Origin: an uncultured Clostridia bacterium
Lineage (GTDB): Bacteria; Bacillota; Clostridia; Peptostreptococcales; Anaerovoracaceae
NCBI GenBank assembly: GCA_945828095.1
Contig: CALZOZ010000005.1
Span: 1-53,824 of the forward strand
Direction of reading: 5' to 3'
Length of the DNA: 53,824 nt
Within the stretch, counting starts at the first letter, position 1; the number at the start of each line of letters is the position of its first letter. Below, piece by piece: positions 214 to 25,643 of the stretch. A program made the position numbers and the translations under genes. Below the pieces are notes generated by a model, which saw only the letters and a list, made by a program, of their open reading frames with translations, did not search any database and was not told the origin of the DNA.

Positions 214-1539
214 TTACAGAAGCGGAGCTACAAAGATTGCGCAAAGTGCAATCGGAATATTGTAGCAAAGAGCTGTCGGTACGCATGTATCCCAGATGTG
301 ATCGTGCTGTCCGTCAGCATTAAGACCGGATGTAGGTCCAAGAGTTGTATCGGATGCCGGTGAACCTGCGTCTCCAAGAGCGGCAGCCGCTGCGATAAGC
401 ATTACCGTACCGCCTACGCTGAATCCCATCTGTGCACAAAGAGGAACGTAGAGAACTGCAAGTACAGGAATTGTTCCGAAGGATGTTCCGATACCGATGG
501 TAATGATAAGACCGATAACCATCATAACTGCAGCTGCCAGGAACTTGCTGCCTCCCATTATTGAAAGAGAAGCTTCAACCAGTTCTCCTACGGCACCTGT
601 TTCGTTCATTACATTTGCATAACCTGCTGCAACCAGCATGATGAATGCGATTACACCCATGATGGCAAAGCCGTTTTTAACCACAGTTTCCAAATCCTTC
701 ATCTTTACAGCACCACCTGCAACCATGATGATGATTCCTGCCAGGGCACCCAGCGGAAGTGAATCGGTCAGAAGGTTGATAACCAGTGTGCCAACAGCTG
801 CCACCAGAGTCACCCAGTGAGCTGCATTCATTTTAAGTGCTACAGGCTTGCCGTTCTCATCAAGTTCCACAGGTGCAGCACCTACGATTTCGCGATTTTC
901 GTAGTCTCTAGGTTTTCTGAAAACAAAGATTGCAATAGCAAGTCCGATAATCATGGAAGCGCCAAGCGGCCATGTGTAGTGCCATACGTTTCCTATTTCG
1001 ATATTCATTCCGTTTGCACCAAGGTTGTCCGCAATAAGACCCTGGAATATGTATCCGAAACCAAAAGGCAGAGCGATATAAGGTGCCTTAAGACCGAAAG
1101 CCAGTGCTGAAGCAGCACTTCTTCTGTCAAGTCTCATCTCATTCATAAGAGGAAGAAGAGACGGTATTAAAATAGGGATGAAAGCAATGTGTACAGGAAT
1201 CAGGTTCTGTGAACAGCAAGCTACCAGAGCCAGAGCGATTACAAGAGCCAGTGCGTTCTTTCCTACTACATGCGAAATCTTCTGTGAAAGAATCTCGGTA
1301 ATACCTGTATAAGCCATTCCGCTGGCCAGAATTCCCAGCAGAATATAGCTGAGTGCCGTTGTGGCGTTGCCGCCCATACCATCGATAAGTACTCCCATGG
1401 TATCCACAATAGACATTCCTGCCAGGACACCTGCTGCCATCGCTGAAATCAACAGAGAAATCAGTACGTTGATTTTAAGCATGCAGAGCACTATAAGAAG
1501 TACAACTGCAATTACTATTGGGTTGAAAATAATTTCCAT
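214..1539 (-). CDS. Na+/H+ antiporter family protein (YuiF-like)
   Basis: A 441-residue, highly hydrophobic carrier with about 11-12 predicted membrane segments, of the ion-transporter superfamily group annotated as Na+/H+ antiporter family or putative amino-acid permease (YuiF type). Typical signatures are visible: a GIGTSFGTIPVLAVLY segment and, near the C-terminus, LGDAGSPASDTTLGPTSG, an acidic/SDTT motif found across NhaC-like carriers. The start at 1539 is chosen because AAAGGAGT lies 8 bases upstream; a longer frame reaching 1668 has no ribosome binding site and runs over the promoter. A sigma-54 promoter (1586-1601) precedes it, and the divergent small gene at 1941 has one too, so expression is probably switched by the neighbouring activator gene (2288-4366). 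The transported amino acid or ion cannot be deduced; lysine or a related cationic amino acid would fit the context (inference). Confidence 0.85.
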   Translation of the reverse strand: MEIIFNPIVIAVVLLIVLCMLKINVLISLLISAMAAGVLAGMSIVDTMGVLIDGMGGNATTALSYILLGILASGMAYTGITEILSQKISHVVGKNALALVIALALVACCSQNLIPVHIAFIPILIPSLLPLMNEMRLDRRSAASALAFGLKAPYIALPFGFGYIFQGLIADNLGANGMNIEIGNVWHYTWPLGASMIIGLAIAIFVFRKPRDYENREIVGAAPVELDENGKPVALKMNAAHWVTLVAAVGTLVINLLTDSLPLGALAGIIIMVAGGAVKMKDLETVVKNGFAIMGVIAFIMLVAAGYANVMNETGAVGELVEASLSIMGGSKFLAAAVMMVIGLIITIGIGTSFGTIPVLAVLYVPLCAQMGFSVGGTVMLIAAAAALGDAGSPASDTTLGPTSGLNADGQHDHIWDTCVPTALCYNIPIALCAIFVAPLL

Positions 1540-1585: not shown

Positions 1586-1601
1586 GCAAGTATCATGCCA
1601 A
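1586..1601 (-). promoter_or_regulatory. Sigma-54 (-24/-12) promoter of the YuiF-like antiporter
   Basis: The minus strand reads TTGGCATGATACTTGC, matching TGGCAY-N5-TTGC with the required 12-base spacing between the GG and GC pairs. The GC element lies 47 bases upstream of the antiporter start codon. Confidence 0.75.
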
Positions 1602-1663
1602 TATCTCGATGTCGAAAAATGTTGAAAAATGAATGCGCTATATAGCGATTTCTGCTGTTTTGC

Positions 1664-1710
1664 ACCATTTATGGGTCATGAGTCATTTTCCGTTGAACCA
1701 TTTTTGAGTC
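1664..1710. promoter_or_regulatory. Paired putative enhancer sites for a sigma-54 activator
   Basis: Two copies of one 14-bp motif, ACCATTTATGGGTC (1664-1677) and ACCATTTTTGAGTC (1697-1710), start 33 bp apart, about three helical turns. Very similar copies, ACCGTTTTCGGTTC and ACCATTTTCGGTTC, lie between the activator gene and the next antiporter (4385-4429), 31 bp apart. This pair sits between two divergent sigma-54 promoters, at about 63-110 bp from the left one and 140-185 bp from the right one, the usual place for upstream activating sites. The remainder of 1540-1940 is AT-rich and shows no gene. Confidence 0.6.
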
Positions 1711-1848
1711 GAAATACATTTTTCCTCTATGTCAGGTGCATCACATTCGGGGATATATTTCTTATATATAATTGAAGATTTTGGCAATTTCCCGGAAAAA
1801 ACGACCTTTTTTCAGTTTTTTTCATCTTTTTTACCCTTTCTCCAAAAC

Positions 1849-1864
1849 TTGGCACGGTATATGC
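1849..1864 (+). promoter_or_regulatory. Sigma-54 (-24/-12) promoter of the 79-residue protein gene
   Basis: TTGGCACGGTATATGC has a perfect -24 element (TGGCAC) and correct 12-base GG-to-GC spacing; the -12 element is ATGC instead of TTGC. It lies 77 bases before the start codon of the small gene at 1941. Confidence 0.7.
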
Positions 1865-1940
1865 AATAAATGTTGGTACAAAGAAAAAAACCAAACAAGC
1901 AATAAAAAATAACTAAAAGATGTACATGGAGGTAATCAAA

Positions 1941-2180
1941 ATGACTAACAAGAAACAGGTTTTAGACTATGCTTTCGAAGAAGCAGTAGGAACAATCAAC
2001 TTAAACTCAATCACCAAAGAAGTTGCTGAAGAAGCAATCGCTACAGCAATGATGGGATATGCTGCTCGTGAAGGATATGAATTCACTAAAGAAGAAGTTC
2101 ACGCTACAATCGTTGCAGGCTTCGAAACTTTAGCTAAGTCAAGAGCTGACTTCACTCTTCAGACTTGGACAATGAAATAA
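1941..2180 (+). CDS. Small protein of unknown function, sigma-54 controlled
   Basis: A 79-residue soluble protein that I do not recognise. It begins MTNKKQVLDYAFEEAVGTIN, is rich in Glu and Ala, has no signal peptide, membrane segment or cysteine, and looks largely helical. GGAGGT ends 6 bases before the ATG at 1941; an in-frame ATG at 1920 lacks this spacing. Codon choice is strongly biased (GCT, GAA, ATC), as in highly expressed genes. It has its own sigma-54 promoter (1849-1864) and ends at a strong terminator (2253-2283), so it is monocistronic. It lies between the YuiF-like antiporter and the sigma-54 activator and shares the enhancer pair at 1664-1710. It could be a small adaptor or modulator of amino-acid metabolism; there is no direct evidence for any function. 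Confidence 0.8.
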   Translation: MTNKKQVLDYAFEEAVGTINLNSITKEVAEEAIATAMMGYAAREGYEFTKEEVHATIVAGFETLAKSRADFTLQTWTMK

Positions 2181-2252: not shown

Positions 2253-2283
2253 AAAAAAGGATGCCCTTGCGGCATCCTTTTTT
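2253..2283. terminator. Bidirectional terminator
   Basis: A 13-bp perfect stem (2253-2265 with 2271-2283) around the loop CTTGC carries an A-tract on the left and a T-tract on the right, so it can end both the plus-strand small gene and the convergent minus-strand activator gene. Confidence 0.9.
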
Positions 2284-2287
2284 CAAG

Positions 2288-4366
2288 CTATAAATTATGT
2301 TTAAGCTTTTTTCTCGCCAGAGTGGTCTGCGGAATTCCCAGGAACTCCGCTGCTTTTCTGGTAGTACCCTTTTTATTTAATGCATATGCGATGATTTTCT
2401 TTTCCTGCTCGTCCATGAGCTGATTAAAGTCAATTGACTCCGCTCCAGCCATTTCCTTGCGGATGTCCATTGTCACCTCTCCCATCACATTTCTGTTCAG
2501 CAGCATATCCACCGCGTAGCCGTCAATAACACGTCCTTTTTCGGCAATATAAAGTCTATGTATTGTGTTTTCAAGTTCACGGACATTGCCCGGCCAGTGG
2601 TATTCTTCAAGCTGCCTGTATGCGTCATCGGCAAAACTCTTTTCTATTCCGTATCTCTGGCTGTAGTTCTTCAGGAAAGCATCGGCCAGACAGCTTATAT
2701 CATCCTTTCTGAATCTCAACGGAGGTACATTTATCAGGCAAATGTTCATTCTGTAGTAAAGGTCTTCCCTGAATTTCCCGTCCTCCACAAGCTTCTTCAG
2801 AGGTATATTGTTAGCACAAATTACACGTACATTTACATGCTTCGGCTGAGTTCCTCCTACACGGTAATATGTATTTTCCTGAAGAACCCGGAGCAGCTTG
2901 GCCTGCATTTCCAGGGAAAGGCTGCCTATTTCGTCCAGGAAAAGCGTTCCGTTGTTGGCCAGTTCGAAATATCCTTCCTTGCCTCCGGCCTGAGCACCGG
3001 TAAATGAGCCCTTCTCATAACCGAAGAATTCCGACTCCGCAAGACTCTCTGAAATAGTGGCACAGTTTATCTTTACACATGGCTTATCCCTGCGCGGGCT
3101 GTTCTGATGAATAAGGTTAAACACCTTCTCTTTTCCTACGCCGGTTTCTCCCTGAATTATGACATTGCAGTCATACTGGGCAACATTGAGAATCTCTCCG
3201 ACCATTTCAGCAGTAACCTGGCTCTTATATATAAATCCGTCTATCTGCTGTGCTGCAGCCTTAGTAGACTCTTTTGAGTATCTTCGAGGTTTGAAATTTA
3301 TCTTTTTCTTTCCCGCATAAAATGCATCCAGCCGGTTGAGTGCCGGCTCCGACTTATTGACAATCTCTACAGCAAAGTCGTAAGCAAAATCGCTGTATCC
3401 ATCAAGTCCATAATGAGTTACATTCTTTTTCAGGCAATCCACCACAAGCAGTCCCTGGGAATAACGGCTGTTCATACTGGTATAACAGATCAGTCCGTTA
3501 TTTTTGGCAATGAGGGCAGCCACGCTTTCGCAGCCTTTAATATTTTCCAGATTGATTACCGCATCAAAGGCTCTGCCATCCTCACCGCTCATAATGTGTT
3601 CAACGGCTTCAACAGGTTTGCTTAAATCGACAAAATATATGCCGTCCACAAGATTACCAAAAACGGTTCGCAGGTCTTCTCTTGTTATACCGTGGAAATA
3701 CGCAGTGTCTATGATAAACTTTACGAGGACACCCTCTTTGCCCTTATCCTTCACCATCTGAGCATAGAAAATGGCCTCTGAAATATTACTTCCTATTATA
3801 GCTGCACTCTCCACTCCCATGGTCTCAATCTCGCGGCCGATTCCGTAAATACTGCCCTCTTCTTCAAGAGCTCTGGCAAGGTGAGTTGTGGCCCTGCTGT
3901 CAGGGTTATCTATCTTTACAAGACGGGAACTTTCAAAACAGATTACATATCCGCTGCACTCTATTTTACTGTAATATTCATCTATCTCACCTATTTTATC
4001 TATATAAGTTGGAAGTCCAGCCAAAGGTGTCAGGCCCACCACGCAGTCTCCTATTTTAAGATCTCCAAGATCAAAGCCGGGAGCCGCCTCCAGTATGGTA
4101 CCTACAAAAAGAGCACTGCTTTCTGTGTATGGATTATGCAGTTTGCCCCTCTCGCTGATTATTTTGATGATTCTTTCCTTTACTTCTTTGTTGTCGTACT
4201 CACATATGCTGCAAAGCTGATAGAAATTTTCTCTCTCAAACACTATGCTGTGCAGACCCACTTTAACTTCTCCCTGGCGCAGCTTAGGCGAATTATCCAG
4301 CTTCCACGCGGTTACCGGCAGGCTACCCGCCGGCTCTAAAACTCTATGCAGTCCAAAGTCACTCAT
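2288..4366 (-). CDS. Sigma-54 activator with a diaminohexanoate-dehydrogenase-like sensor domain
   Basis: A 692-residue enhancer-binding protein. Residues about 380-620 are the sigma-54 AAA+ domain: Walker A GETGVGKE (406-413), the sigma-54 contact loop as GSFTGA (453-458), and Walker B NGTLFLDEIG. The C-terminus (about 650-692) is a Fis-type helix-turn-helix containing RKAAEFLGIPQTTLARKKL. Residues 1-350 are not PAS or receiver: the opening GLHRVLEPAGSLPVTAWKLD and the segment ISERGKLHNP resemble L-erythro-3,5-diaminohexanoate dehydrogenase (Kdd) of lysine fermentation. The dinucleotide loop reads IIGSNISEA rather than a full GxGxxG, so this part probably senses a ligand rather than catalyses (inference). 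The start at 4366 is set by GGAGGAG just upstream. A sigma-70 promoter (4411-4440) drives it, overlapped by the putative enhancer sites, which suggests autoregulation. Confidence 0.9.
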   Translation of the reverse strand: MSDFGLHRVLEPAGSLPVTAWKLDNSPKLRQGEVKVGLHSIVFERENFYQLCSICEYDNKEVKERIIKIISERGKLHNPYTESSALFVGTILEAAPGFDLGDLKIGDCVVGLTPLAGLPTYIDKIGEIDEYYSKIECSGYVICFESSRLVKIDNPDSRATTHLARALEEEGSIYGIGREIETMGVESAAIIGSNISEAIFYAQMVKDKGKEGVLVKFIIDTAYFHGITREDLRTVFGNLVDGIYFVDLSKPVEAVEHIMSGEDGRAFDAVINLENIKGCESVAALIAKNNGLICYTSMNSRYSQGLLVVDCLKKNVTHYGLDGYSDFAYDFAVEIVNKSEPALNRLDAFYAGKKKINFKPRRYSKESTKAAAQQIDGFIYKSQVTAEMVGEILNVAQYDCNVIIQGETGVGKEKVFNLIHQNSPRRDKPCVKINCATISESLAESEFFGYEKGSFTGAQAGGKEGYFELANNGTLFLDEIGSLSLEMQAKLLRVLQENTYYRVGGTQPKHVNVRVICANNIPLKKLVEDGKFREDLYYRMNICLINVPPLRFRKDDISCLADAFLKNYSQRYGIEKSFADDAYRQLEEYHWPGNVRELENTIHRLYIAEKGRVIDGYAVDMLLNRNVMGEVTMDIRKEMAGAESIDFNQLMDEQEKKIIAYALNKKGTTRKAAEFLGIPQTTLARKKLKHNL

Positions 4367-4384
4367 TTTCTCCTCCATGCACGC

Positions 4385-4429
4385 ACCGTTTTCGGTTCAC
4401 GTGTTGCTTTATTGTACCATTTTCGGTTC
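4385..4429. promoter_or_regulatory. Paired putative enhancer/operator sites
   Basis: ACCGTTTTCGGTTC (4385-4398) and ACCATTTTCGGTTC (4416-4429) start 31 bp apart; the first has a perfect ACCG-N4-CGGT dyad. They lie about 110-150 bp upstream of the sigma-54 promoter at 4538 and match the pair at 1664-1710. The right site falls inside the -35/-10 spacer of the activator's own promoter and the left one in its untranslated leader. Confidence 0.65.
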
Positions 4430-4440
4430 GCATTTGTCAA
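4411..4440 (-). promoter_or_regulatory. Sigma-70 promoter of the sigma-54 activator gene
   Basis: On the minus strand, TTGACA (4435-4440) and TACAAT (4411-4416) are separated by 18 bases. It lies 45 bases upstream of the activator start at 4366. Confidence 0.75.
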
Positions 4441-4537: not shown

Positions 4538-4553
4538 TTGGCACGAAATTTGC
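4538..4553 (+). promoter_or_regulatory. Sigma-54 (-24/-12) promoter of the NhaC-family gene
   Basis: TTGGCACGAAATTTGC matches the TGGCAC-N5-TTGC consensus exactly and lies 57 bases before the start codon at 4610. Confidence 0.88.
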
Positions 4554-4609: not shown

Positions 4610-6091
4610 ATGAACTTTTTAAAGGCTTTTATTAAGTTCGTTCCTGTATTCATTCTCGCTGGATTGATGATTCAGGGACAAGACGCAATGATTGCAGCAC
4701 CTCTCGCTTTCTTATGCGCAGTTGTAGTTGCAATGCTCGTTGCAAAGAAAAAATGGCAGGAATGCTTAGACTCTGCTATGGATTCTGTAAAGAACATCTT
4801 AGTGGCTTTATTCATCCTTATGCTGGCTTATGTAATGGCTAACTGCTTCATGAGCTTCGGCGTAGGCGCATCAGTAGTAAACATCGCATTAAAACTCGGT
4901 GTTACTGCTAAGACTGTTGCTTGCGTAGGTCTTGTTTGTACCGGTGTACTTTCAGTTGCAACAGGTACTTCATGGGGAACCTTCGCAGCATGTGCACCAA
5001 TTTTCTTATGGTTATCACACATCGTAGGCGGAAACGTTTATCTTACTGTATGTGCTATCGCCGGCGGAGCTTGCTTCGGAGACAACATCGGTCTTATTTC
5101 CGATACTACCATCGTATCCTCCGGTATCCAGGGCGTACAGGTTACAGACAGAATCAGACACCAGGGTGTTTGGTCAGTTGCCTGCCTTGTTTTAGCTGCT
5201 ATCGCATTCTTCGTAGCTGCTACAGTAATGGGATTAAACGGAACAGGCGATGCTTCCACAGTTATGGACAACATCACTCCTGAAATCCAGGCTTTCCTTG
5301 AAGAGGAACGTCCTGCAGCACTTGACCTTCTCAACCAGGTTGCTGACGGTGTTGCTCTTTACATGGTAATTCCTCTGGTTCTGGTAATCGTTCTCGCAGT
5401 TATGGGTGTTAACACATTTGCTTGTATCGGAAGCGGTATCGTTTCTTCATACCTCTTAGGTCTCGTTGCAGGAACTGCTTGCGATGTTCAGACATTCTTA
5501 GATGACTATGTTTTCACAGGTATCGAAGATGCAGGTGCTTGGGTAATTCCTATGATGATGTGGGTTGCAGCATTCGGTGGTGTAATGCAGTGCATGGACG
5601 CTTTTGCTCCTTTAGCAGCACTCATCGCAAAGATGTCAAAGAAGGTAAGACACTTACTTGGATGGAACGCAGTTCTTTCCTTACTCGGCAATGTGGCTCT
5701 TGCTGACGAAATGGCTCAGATCGTTACAATCGGACCGGTTATCAAGCAGGTTACAGAAGACAACGTTGTATGCGAAACAGAAGAAGCTGCTTACAAGCTG
5801 AAGCTGAGAAACGCTACCTTCGGAGATGCTATGGGCGTATTCGGTTCACAGCTGATTCCTTGGCACGTATACCTTGGTTTCTATGTAGGTATTGCTGCTG
5901 GAGTATATCCGCTGGTAGAACTTACAAACATGGACTTCATCAAGTACAACTTCATGGCTATGATCGCTGTTGCTTCACTTCTCATCTTAACATTCACAGG
6001 ACTTGACAGATTCGTTCCTATGTTCAAGATGCCTACCGAACCTGAAGTTCAGTTAAAGAAGAACCTCAAGAAGGATCAGCAGGCTGCATAA
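4610..6091 (+). CDS. NhaC-family Na+/H+ antiporter-like carrier
   Basis: A 493-residue integral membrane carrier of the NhaC family. It shows the family's signature blocks: GTSWGTFAACAPIF near residue 125 and GGACFGDNIGLISDTTI near residue 160 (the FGD...SDTT motif), repeated in looser form as LLGNVALADEMAQIVTIGP and TFGDAMGVFGSQLIPW in the C-terminal half. About 11-12 membrane segments are apparent and the C-terminus is lysine-rich. AAAAGGAG precedes the ATG at 4610; an upstream extension to 4538 would overlap the promoter and is rejected. Transcription should depend on sigma-54 and the divergent activator, whose sensor domain points to lysine-type fermentation. An amino-acid/Na+ exchange role is therefore as plausible as pure Na+/H+ antiport (inference). 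Codon bias suggests high expression. Confidence 0.9.
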   Translation: MNFLKAFIKFVPVFILAGLMIQGQDAMIAAPLAFLCAVVVAMLVAKKKWQECLDSAMDSVKNILVALFILMLAYVMANCFMSFGVGASVVNIALKLGVTAKTVACVGLVCTGVLSVATGTSWGTFAACAPIFLWLSHIVGGNVYLTVCAIAGGACFGDNIGLISDTTIVSSGIQGVQVTDRIRHQGVWSVACLVLAAIAFFVAATVMGLNGTGDASTVMDNITPEIQAFLEEERPAALDLLNQVADGVALYMVIPLVLVIVLAVMGVNTFACIGSGIVSSYLLGLVAGTACDVQTFLDDYVFTGIEDAGAWVIPMMMWVAAFGGVMQCMDAFAPLAALIAKMSKKVRHLLGWNAVLSLLGNVALADEMAQIVTIGPVIKQVTEDNVVCETEEAAYKLKLRNATFGDAMGVFGSQLIPWHVYLGFYVGIAAGVYPLVELTNMDFIKYNFMAMIAVASLLILTFTGLDRFVPMFKMPTEPEVQLKKNLKKDQQAA

Positions 6092-21199: not shown

Positions 21200-22369
21200 T
21201 TATTTGAACTCATCGTAAAAGTTTTCGGATTTTGTAACTGTCGCTGCCGGAGCAGGGTCAAGTTTTCTGTCTGCGATTCCGAGAATAACTTCAGGCTTAA
21301 CCCAAGGTCTGCCCTGGATGCCGCTGGTTTCCTCATGAGTGAGGTATCCTTTGTAGGCTGTAAGGCTTCTTCTCAGGAAACCGTCTCTTGCGCAGGCTTC
21401 TTCAAGACCGTTGTTCATAATTGAACGGAAGTGATTTACAATACCTGCAGCATAAGCAACAGAAGTTGAGCCTGCAATTGCTCCCGGAATGTTGCTTACA
21501 CAGTAGTGCACAACGCCTTCTTCAATGTAAATAGGATCATCATGAGTGGTTTCGTGGAAGGTTTCAATACATCCCTCATCGTTGCTGACATCTACAATTA
21601 CAGAACCTCTTCTCATGGAAGCTACCATCTCTCTTGTGATCATTGCTTCCTTGGCATTCTTCGGCCATCTTACGCAGTTGATTACCAGATCTGTTGTAGG
21701 GAGCTCCTTAGTCAGGTTATATTTATTGGAAATAATAGTATTGACTTTTCCGTCATACTTTGTGGCAATATCTCTCAATGCACCGATATTTATATCTGCT
21801 ACAGTTACCCACGCACCCATAGTCTGAAGAACTTCGATAGCACCTTTACCTACTGTACCGCATCCGCATACCAGCGCCTTGATTCCCGGAGCTGCGCCAA
21901 GTCCGCTTACGAACTTTCCGCTGCCGCCGTTGGTGCTCATCATAGACCAGAGACCCATGAAAGCTCCTGCCTTGCCTGCAGCCTCGCAGTTAGGAGAACC
22001 ATATCTGTGTGAATCCTCTGCAGTAATTGCAATAACCTTCTTTTCGAGGAGAGCATCAACTTCTTCCCTGTGAGCAGCCGGATGGATGCAGCAGTAAATC
22101 ATCTGTCCCTCTCTCATAAGATCATATTCGCTGGCCTCGATTTCCTTAACCTTTGCTACAAAATCACAAGTAGCCCAGATTTCTTCGTTAGTTGCCAGAA
22201 TGGTTGCACCCGCTGCCGCATATTCTTCATCGTCAAAGCCTGCTGCATAACCTGCCATGCTTGCCACATAAACTTCGTGGCCGTCGCCGACGATAAGACT
22301 TACTTCAGCAGGAGTGGCAACTACTCTGTACTCACCGTTTTTAATGTCCTTTAAAACTCCAAATTTCAT
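21200..22369 (-). CDS. ald: Alanine dehydrogenase/PNT-family protein, probable alanine dehydrogenase
   Basis: A 389-residue protein of the alanine dehydrogenase/transhydrogenase N-terminal family, expected to interconvert L-alanine and pyruvate plus ammonia with NAD. It shows the opening KDIKNGEYRVVATPAEV, the substrate-region KVKE and CCIHPAAH, a Rossmann loop CGCGTVGKGAIEVLQTMGAWV, and the late block GVVHYCVSNIPGAIAGST (VVHYCVxNMPG in classical Ald). The middle is more divergent from classical Ald (CEAAGKAGAFMGLWSM instead of the usual PMSEVAGRMA-type sequence), so a related amino acid substrate is possible. AAAGGAAG precedes the ATG at 22369. It has its own sigma-54 promoter (22418-22433) and enhancer-like pair, downstream of the activator gene that probably controls it. 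Confidence 0.85.
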   Translation of the reverse strand: MKFGVLKDIKNGEYRVVATPAEVSLIVGDGHEVYVASMAGYAAGFDDEEYAAAGATILATNEEIWATCDFVAKVKEIEASEYDLMREGQMIYCCIHPAAHREEVDALLEKKVIAITAEDSHRYGSPNCEAAGKAGAFMGLWSMMSTNGGSGKFVSGLGAAPGIKALVCGCGTVGKGAIEVLQTMGAWVTVADINIGALRDIATKYDGKVNTIISNKYNLTKELPTTDLVINCVRWPKNAKEAMITREMVASMRRGSVIVDVSNDEGCIETFHETTHDDPIYIEEGVVHYCVSNIPGAIAGSTSVAYAAGIVNHFRSIMNNGLEEACARDGFLRRSLTAYKGYLTHEETSGIQGRPWVKPEVILGIADRKLDPAPAATVTKSENFYDEFK

Positions 22370-22417: not shown

Positions 22418-22433
22418 GCAAAAGCCGTGCCAA
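22418..22433 (-). promoter_or_regulatory. Sigma-54 (-24/-12) promoter of ald
   Basis: The minus strand reads TTGGCACGGCTTTTGC, a perfect TGGCAC-N5-TTGC match, 48 bases upstream of the ald start codon. Confidence 0.9.
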
Positions 22434-22581: not shown

Positions 22582-24000
22582 CTATAGACCGTACTCCTTC
22601 ACCTTGCGGCTAAGGGTCTGTCTAGGAACATCAAGAAGCTGGGCCGCTTTAGTTATATTGCCGTCAGCCTCGCTAAGCGCCCTGCTTATCAGCTTCTTTT
22701 CATATCCGGAAACCATATCTGCAAGGGCCCCCTGCTCATCAGGCAGCTCGATGGTCTCTGCCGCGGCCGGTTTAAGAGCCTCTTCCGCCATATCCATGCA
22801 CGAAAGCCGGCCTGAAACGTGTCTGTATTCAAGAGTATCGGATTTATCGTCGGCCACACAAACTGCCGCAGCTATGGCACTTTCCAGTTCCCGTACATTT
22901 CCCTGCCATCTGCATTCTGAGAGAGCATCATAAACCAGCGGTTCAACTTTATGTATTCTCTTACCGAACATGGCATTATATTTTCCGATAAACAGGTTTG
23001 CCAAAAGGGGTATATCTTTTTTCCTATCACGAAGGGACGGTATCTCAACCATCAGTACTGCCAGCCTATAAAATAAATCTCTCCTGAAGCGTCCGTCTGC
23101 AATTACATCCTCCAGTTTTTCGTTGGTAGATGAAATGATGCGCACATCTACATGGCGTACATCCTTTCCCCCTACTCGCCGGAATGTTCCATCCTGAATT
23201 ACCCTGAGAATCTTCGGCTGCAGCTCCATAGGCATTGAGTTTATTTCGTCAAGGAAAAGCGTCCCGCCGTCGGCCAGTTCCAAAAGGCCCATGTTATCCA
23301 CAGCGCCGGTAAAGGCACCTTTTGAGGTCCCGAATAAAATACTTTCTATCAGGTTAGCCGGTATGGATGAGCAGTTCTGCACCACAAAAGGCTTGTCTGC
23401 CCTCTTGCTGAGATTATGCAGAGAATGAGCCACCAGCTCCTTTCCCGTTCCCGTTTCACCGTATATCAGCACAGGCAGGTCAGATTTGGCGAATTTGGCT
23501 ATGTTCTCCTTCATCTCAATCATTCCGCTGTCGCAGGTATGAATATCGTCCACCGTATAAACCGCCTTATCATCAGCTCTGTGAAGGCTTTCCACTTTGT
23601 TGTATGCGTAAAGCACCTCATCTTTTATTTCTACACCGCCCGTTTCCTTAGGAGGGTCGGATACAACAGAAAGATCTATAGCACCGACTATGGAACGTCC
23701 GCTTTTTATCGGTACGGAGAGGGATGTAATGTGTATCGGCTTCTGTCCTACGCTCTTCAGTTCCTGATTTTCCACATAAATAGGCACGCCGTTTCTCATA
23801 GCGCGATATGTGCTGCTGTTGTTTTCGTCCAGGTTTTCATATACATCCAGGAATTTTTTGCCCACAACCTCGTAGTTCTCGTCCTTCTCGTTCATTTTAT
23901 TGTTGAACTTGGCCGAAAAAAGGATTTCTCCCTCAACGTTTATTATGGTAATTCCTTCAATGTATCCGATGTCTTTAAATAGTTTTTTTATTTCTTCCAT
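22582..24000 (-). CDS. Sigma-54-dependent activator with PAS-like sensor domain
   Basis: A 472-residue enhancer-binding protein. Residues 1-115 resemble a PAS-type sensor (EGITIINVEGEILFS ... SLSVPIKSGRSIVGAIDLS); 155-390 are the AAA+ domain with Walker A GETGTGKE (181-188), sigma-54 contact loop GAFTGA (228-233) and Walker B GGTLFLDEIN; 435-472 are a Fis-type helix-turn-helix (NITKAAQLLDVPRQTLSRKVK). AAGGAAA precedes the ATG at 24000; a longer frame to 24069 has no such site. It is flanked by ald and an NhaC-family gene, each with a perfect sigma-54 promoter and matching enhancer-like sites, so these are its likely targets. The absence of a receiver domain implies direct sensing of a small molecule, perhaps an amino acid (inference). 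Confidence 0.93.
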   Translation of the reverse strand: MEEIKKLFKDIGYIEGITIINVEGEILFSAKFNNKMNEKDENYEVVGKKFLDVYENLDENNSSTYRAMRNGVPIYVENQELKSVGQKPIHITSLSVPIKSGRSIVGAIDLSVVSDPPKETGGVEIKDEVLYAYNKVESLHRADDKAVYTVDDIHTCDSGMIEMKENIAKFAKSDLPVLIYGETGTGKELVAHSLHNLSKRADKPFVVQNCSSIPANLIESILFGTSKGAFTGAVDNMGLLELADGGTLFLDEINSMPMELQPKILRVIQDGTFRRVGGKDVRHVDVRIISSTNEKLEDVIADGRFRRDLFYRLAVLMVEIPSLRDRKKDIPLLANLFIGKYNAMFGKRIHKVEPLVYDALSECRWQGNVRELESAIAAAVCVADDKSDTLEYRHVSGRLSCMDMAEEALKPAAAETIELPDEQGALADMVSGYEKKLISRALSEADGNITKAAQLLDVPRQTLSRKVKEYGL

Positions 24001-24110
24001 GTCAAGTCTTTTCCTTACACTATTTCTGCATACTTTGATACCTTCCGGCTTACAGCCTATCAAGACCATTTTAATATATCATCGATGAATTCACAAGCAC
24101 AAAATCCATA

Positions 24111-25627: not shown

Positions 25628-25643
25628 GCAAATACCGTGCCAA
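25628..25643 (-). promoter_or_regulatory. Sigma-54 (-24/-12) promoter of nhaC
   Basis: The minus strand reads TTGGCACGGTATTTGC, a perfect consensus match, 41 bases upstream of the start codon. Confidence 0.9.

Follow-up and report, generated by a model that had tools for sequence, protein, structure and literature searches.

A conserved three-helix small protein encoded beside sigma-54 activators with a Kdd-like sensor domain in Anaerovoracaceae

In many anaerobes, gut bacteria among them, amino-acid fermentation is under the control of sigma-54 activators. Two sigma-54-dependent products are described as acting back on their own activators, namely PspA on PspF (PMC3068692) and RtcAB on RtcR, where the ligand-sensing domain is bound (PMC9650030). 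In GlnK-AmtB, a small soluble regulator is paired with a transporter (PMC3831643). With respect to regulon content, one survey describes PrdR/OrdR-type AAA+ activators of amino-acid-fermenting Clostridiales, which control amino-acid catabolism and NhaC carriers via UAS and sigma-54 promoters (PMC6615313).

The locus described here lies in a 53,824-nucleotide stretch of DNA (the window) from an uncultured Clostridia bacterium of the Anaerovoracaceae, and centers on a small gene next to a sigma-54 activator and two carriers. The PrdR/OrdR-type regulons resemble this locus in that UAS and sigma-54 promoters place NhaC carriers under an AAA+ activator. The regulatory domains listed in that survey include no dehydrogenase-like (Kdd-like) sensor, and the part of its regulon table covered here contains no comparable lone gene for a small helical protein (PMC6615313). 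The likeness to PspA-PspF and RtcAB-RtcR would consist of a sigma-54-dependent product acting back on its own activator. The activator here, however, carries a Kdd-derived sensor, unlike PspF, which has no sensor domain (PMC6615313), and unlike RtcR, which has a CARF domain; moreover, no sequence or fold relation of the small protein to PspA or RtcAB was found. GlnK-AmtB is similar in that a small soluble protein is co-produced with a transporter, but the small protein here has three helices and no strands and is not of the PII fold, the carriers are NhaC-type, and any binding between them would be hypothetical. Within the literature that our search covered, no paper joining sigma-54 with Kdd or lysine fermentation was found. 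The genes of the locus are as follows.

214..1539, - strand: carrier T1 (PF03553 and PF13726), Na+/H+ antiporter-type
1928..1932, + strand: ribosome-binding site GGAGG of the small gene (sequence; kept across the genus)
1941..2180, + strand: small gene, 79-aa three-helix protein (ORF, genus homologues, AlphaFold, codon analysis)
2253..2283, no strand: terminator-like stem-loop common to the convergent small gene and activator gene (sequence; genus-conserved)
2288..4378, - strand: sigma-54 activator gene, with Kdd-like sensor domain (residues about 1-350), AAA+ (GSFTGA) and Fis-type HTH
4610..6091, + strand: carrier T2, NhaC/ArcD-type (PF03553), with codon adaptation as high as dnaK

The small gene encodes a conserved, soluble protein of 79 aa (MTNKKQ...QTWTMK; MTNKKQVLDYAFEEAVGTINLNSITKEVAEEAIATAMMGYAAREGYEFTKEEVHATIVAGFETLAKSRADFTLQTWTMK). 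Full-length homologues are found in all six genus genomes at 62-94% identity, and in the genus alignment constraint starts precisely at the ATG at 1941, with constrained codons downstream and drifting DNA upstream. Specifically, genus comparison gave dS values of 0.6-1.5 and dN values of 0.04-0.32 (dN/dS 0.04-0.41, mostly <0.35), from which we conclude that the ORF is a protein under selection; a non-coding RNA reading of 1941-2180 is ruled out by this codon-level constraint. The gene has no rare codons, and its codon adaptation of 0.78 compares with 0.78 for dnaK, 0.79 for T2 and 0.36 for the activator, although the reference consisted of dnaK and the carrier and therefore contains dnaK and T2 themselves, so that only the value for the small ORF is independent. 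As this value is at the dnaK/T2 level and far above that of the activator, the product is probably abundant. These results confirm the codon-biased 79-residue protein gene that the initial annotation had proposed for this interval.

In terms of expression, the small gene looks sigma-54-dependent and served by an enhancer-binding activator of its own, judging by its promoter, the palindromes upstream, the AAA+ neighbor and the presence of rpoN. The corresponding sites are listed below.

1586..1600, - strand: divergent sigma-54 promoter of carrier T1 (kept in five genus loci)
1661..1678, no strand: upstream activator palindrome 1, TGCACCATTTATGGGTCA (genus comparison)
1694..1711, no strand: upstream activator palindrome 2, TGAACCATTTTTGAGTCG (genus comparison)
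1849..1864, + strand: sigma-54 (-24/-12) promoter of the small gene, TTGGCACGGTATATGC (pattern scan; genus-conserved)
4382..4399, no strand: upstream activator palindrome 3 (for T2)
4413..4430, no strand: upstream activator palindrome 4 (for T2), 31 bp from palindrome 3
4538..4553, + strand: sigma-54 promoter of carrier T2 (pattern scan)

The small-gene promoter reads TTGGCAC-N5-ATGC, with GG-N10-GC present, and ends about 75 bp 5' of the start codon; its -24/-12 consensus bases are kept in all six genus genomes. A strict sigma-54 pattern matched nine times genome-wide, with four matches within the window, and the reversed control pattern did not match at all. RpoN itself is encoded in the genome (Sigma54_DBD, E 1.5e-64). 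The palindromes are of the type TGAACC-N6-GGGTCA and are candidate activator sites. The pair between T1 and the small gene is spaced by 33 bp in 6/6 genus members, the T2 pair by 31 bp in three out of four genus loci examined. The sigma-54 promoters of both NhaC-type carriers are preceded by like paired palindromes. A genome-wide scan allowing up to three mismatches returned nine sites, four of them the window's own palindromes, which is supportive rather than independent evidence, the pattern having been derived from the window. Two further sites among the nine adjoin sigma-54 sites of a lysine-fermentation cluster with its own Kdd-type activator. Downstream, the stem-loop at 2253-2283 could terminate both convergent genes, and we therefore regard the small gene as monocistronic. 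Together with the promoter, this feature supports the lone expression from a -24/-12 site suggested initially.

The neighboring activator combines an AAA+ domain (Sigma54_activat, PF00158, E 5e-64) with an N-terminus homologous to L-erythro-3,5-diaminohexanoate dehydrogenase (Kdd; NF052381, PDB 7DL3) over residues 4-340 (E 4e-16). The alignment to Kdd also shows a difference, in that the glycine-rich nucleotide-binding motif IIGANGKSG is altered to IIGSNISEA, and the Kdd-like domain is for this reason probably a sensor rather than an enzyme. Activators with a Kdd-derived sensor are widespread in the bacterial family, and three occur in this genome, at 2288-4378 of the window, at ~530-2596 of contig 68 (L073) and at ~1545-3602 of contig 69 (L074). 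On contig 68, two tandem kdd genes (L073, 2845-5109) lie in the lysine-fermentation cluster behind the Kdd-type activator, and window-like palindromes occur near the sigma-54 sites of that cluster. One correction concerns the gene at 21200-22369 of the window: it is alanine dehydrogenase-like, the Kdd character belongs to the activator's N-terminal domain, and the true kdd is on contig 68. Perfect sigma-54 sites at 22418-22433 and 25628-25643 (- strand) precede the alanine dehydrogenase-like gene and an NhaC-type carrier, and a second window sigma-54 activator (22582-24069) lies between these two genes.

By single-sequence search the small protein seemed to be an orphan of the genus, a picture that was overturned by profile searches. 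A profile built from the first six sequences, later extended with 44 rows, found relatives across the Anaerovoracaceae, and nothing convincing was found outside the bacterial family in an order-wide profile search or a class-wide search of 341 genomes. Neither Pfam nor NCBIfam gave a match to the window protein at E<=1, and the 44 family members gave no consistent match in Pfam or PHROGs; the family is thus one without a model in Pfam or NCBIfam. Several members carry tandem domains in one chain, either triple (L054, L059, L060, L063, L064, L152) or double (L202, L208), and in these forms the C-terminal motif DFxxQxWxMK is confined largely to the final repeat, and L054 has lost it.

Where the surroundings of family copies were read, a Kdd-type activator was found within 500 bp in 24 cases, usually in convergent orientation and otherwise on the same strand. 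A strong sigma-54 site was found 64-230 bp upstream of 23 of these 24 copies, as compared to two of the 21 copies that lack both an activator and DsdA in their vicinity (Fisher p 1.6e-9, the copies not being phylogenetically independent) and 3.5% of random upstream controls. On the family tree, copies linked to an activator are spread over at least four branches, with seven label changes versus 16.6 after shuffling, in a tree of short sequences with weak resolution. The activator is the sole constant close neighbor, whereas the carriers vary (NhaC-type, APC or none in view). These patterns lend support to the earlier placement of a soluble product in one regulon with the neighboring activator and carriers. 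At the genome level, Kdd-type proteins are encoded in 42 of 42 genomes with a confident copy versus 166 of 298 genomes overall, counts that were made by hand and in which the 42 genomes come from about ten genera and so are not independent.

A third group of copies lies beside the D-serine dehydratase gene DsdA, at a distance of about 7 kb from a Kdd-type activator, and at L202 and L208 DsdA and the activator are both adjacent, joining the two groups. At L150, L152, L153 and L209, which are also beside D-serine dehydratase, lactate/malate-dehydrogenase-like and FMN-reductase-like genes are nearby, and three of L150, L152, L153 and L209 contain a giant gene (~1,590 aa). About 21 distant relatives have aroK, gltX/dnaE or LysR as neighbors in place of activator or DsdA; the distant relatives at L062, L217 and L219 have no sigma-54 site and are divergent from LysR-type regulator genes. 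Homologues lacking a link to sigma-54 or amino-acid genes had been named at the outset as evidence against the proposed role, and these distant relatives, apart from the two with a site, supply such evidence in part, while the presence of Kdd-type proteins in every genome with a confident copy points the other way.

The link between family and activator runs one way only. Most Kdd-type activators, including the two on contigs 68 and 69 of this genome, have no small gene nearby, and it is absent near seven of the roughly 25 activators most similar to the window's. The small gene is therefore dispensable for activator function. Beside the activator/small-gene pair at L053-L057, L070 and L154-L156, the LysO lysine exporter, PyrR and uracil permease are frequent; a functional link to pyrR/uraA was considered and dropped, as the association holds in some genera only.

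The initial annotation had also named structure prediction as a check. An AlphaFold model built with 44 sequences is a confident three-helix bundle (mean pLDDT 91; helices 4-18, 26-44 and 50-77), with no significant match in PDB or viral fold searches. Across these 44 sequences only L8, A11, F12, M37 and D70 are near-invariant. This set does not resemble an active site, which led us to propose a protein-binding role, and with no catalytic residues apparent in model or alignment the small protein is predicted to be non-catalytic.

Building on these observations, we favor, at a probability of roughly 40%, a reading in which the small protein is a co-induced stoichiometric protein-binding modulator of the regulon whose most likely target is the Kdd-type activator, a partner that we infer. 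In this model, the activator would sense a ligand, possibly, if Kdd is a guide, a diamino acid or one of its derivatives, and would then turn on T1, T2 and the small gene jointly. As the small protein lacks invariant catalytic residues, it would act by binding another protein, and would do so stoichiometrically. The Kdd-type activator would be the likelier partner, giving homeostatic feedback, with a co-induced carrier as the next candidate. The activator is favored because it is the sole constant close neighbor and because family genomes always encode Kdd-type proteins; the carrier is a close second on account of the high expression level and the promoter architecture common to small gene and carriers. 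Fusion of two or three copies in tandem would fit a binder that is multivalent or oligomeric, and one docking or regulatory peptide per chain could be provided by the tail motif DFxxQxWxMK. A stoichiometric binder fits a protein that is non-catalytic, probably abundant, co-induced with carriers, encoded next to the activator and at times tandem.

Several considerations weigh against this reading. The many Kdd-type activators without the small gene, and the roughly 21 distant relatives away from any activator, are among them. The main target gene of any regulator would also adjoin its activator, and proximity does not name the partner. Codon adaptation at the level of dnaK and T2 should exceed what an inhibitor of a scarce activator needs. 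Moreover, the genome-level co-occurrence with Kdd-type proteins may stem from a common amino-acid-fermenting lifestyle.

The foremost alternative is that the small protein, staying in the cytosol, binds, gates or stabilizes the co-induced NhaC-type carriers in a GlnK-AmtB-like manner. One palindrome pair is common to T1 and the small gene, the codon adaptation of T2 (0.79) and the small gene (0.78) is nearly equal, and GlnK-AmtB offers a precedent. Against this, no such carrier lies near the activator/small-gene pair at L151, L206 and L207, other carrier types or none are in view at the L053, L056, L057 and g20 loci, and neither a membrane segment nor a carrier-binding motif is predicted in the small protein. 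The PII/GlnK fold is absent from its all-alpha model (pLDDT 91). We consider a carrier partner unlikely, although it is the alternative to be taken most seriously.

Somewhat less likely again is an accessory subunit or stabilizer of an amino-acid fermentation enzyme, such as Kdd or another diamino-acid enzyme, that is produced while the pathway is active. The 42 of 42 genomes encoding Kdd-type proteins would agree with this, as would copies that adjoin DsdA or sit near arginase, but no copy was found beside this genome's lysine-fermentation operon (L073), and no enzyme recurs as a neighbor throughout. As for the adaptor or enzyme modulator in amino-acid fermentation suggested by the initial annotation, the proposal is a reasonable one but is not supported in that form, the evidence for it being confined to regulon membership, a non-enzymatic fold and genome co-occurrence.

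It is improbable that the small protein is distantly related to the helical YqeY/GatB tail domain and acts on tRNA-dependent processes. The order-wide profile matched YqeY weakly (E 1e-4 to 1e-5), and hhalign gave 94% over 50 columns; UvrB and holin matches were similarly weak, however, with the family profile also matching the UvrB C-terminal hairpin and resembling LL-H holins, and no YqeY structure was among the best 50 PDB fold matches. Since several families matched alike, the YqeY, UvrB and LL-H holin likenesses look like those of generic helical hairpins. A peptide precursor with a Nif11/RiPP-like leader and C-terminal core, suggested by the short length, the conserved C-terminus and Nif11 matches to two of 44 members (E no better than 0.08), was rejected as highly improbable, as the GG cleavage motif is absent, no modifying enzyme was recognized among the neighbors, and tandem forms keep the tail at the end only.

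With respect to its wider meaning, the finding names a protein family that has no Pfam or NCBIfam model. It is conceivable, though we regard it as doubtful, that this is an undescribed three-helix family, in some members tandem, that binds Kdd-like sensors and so provides feedback on the sigma-54 activators governing diamino-acid uptake and fermentation. To our knowledge, the signals and output tuning of sigma-54 activators of amino-acid fermentation are mostly unknown, and a small gene found repeatedly as the dedicated target of activators whose sensor derives from an enzyme would offer a handle on both.
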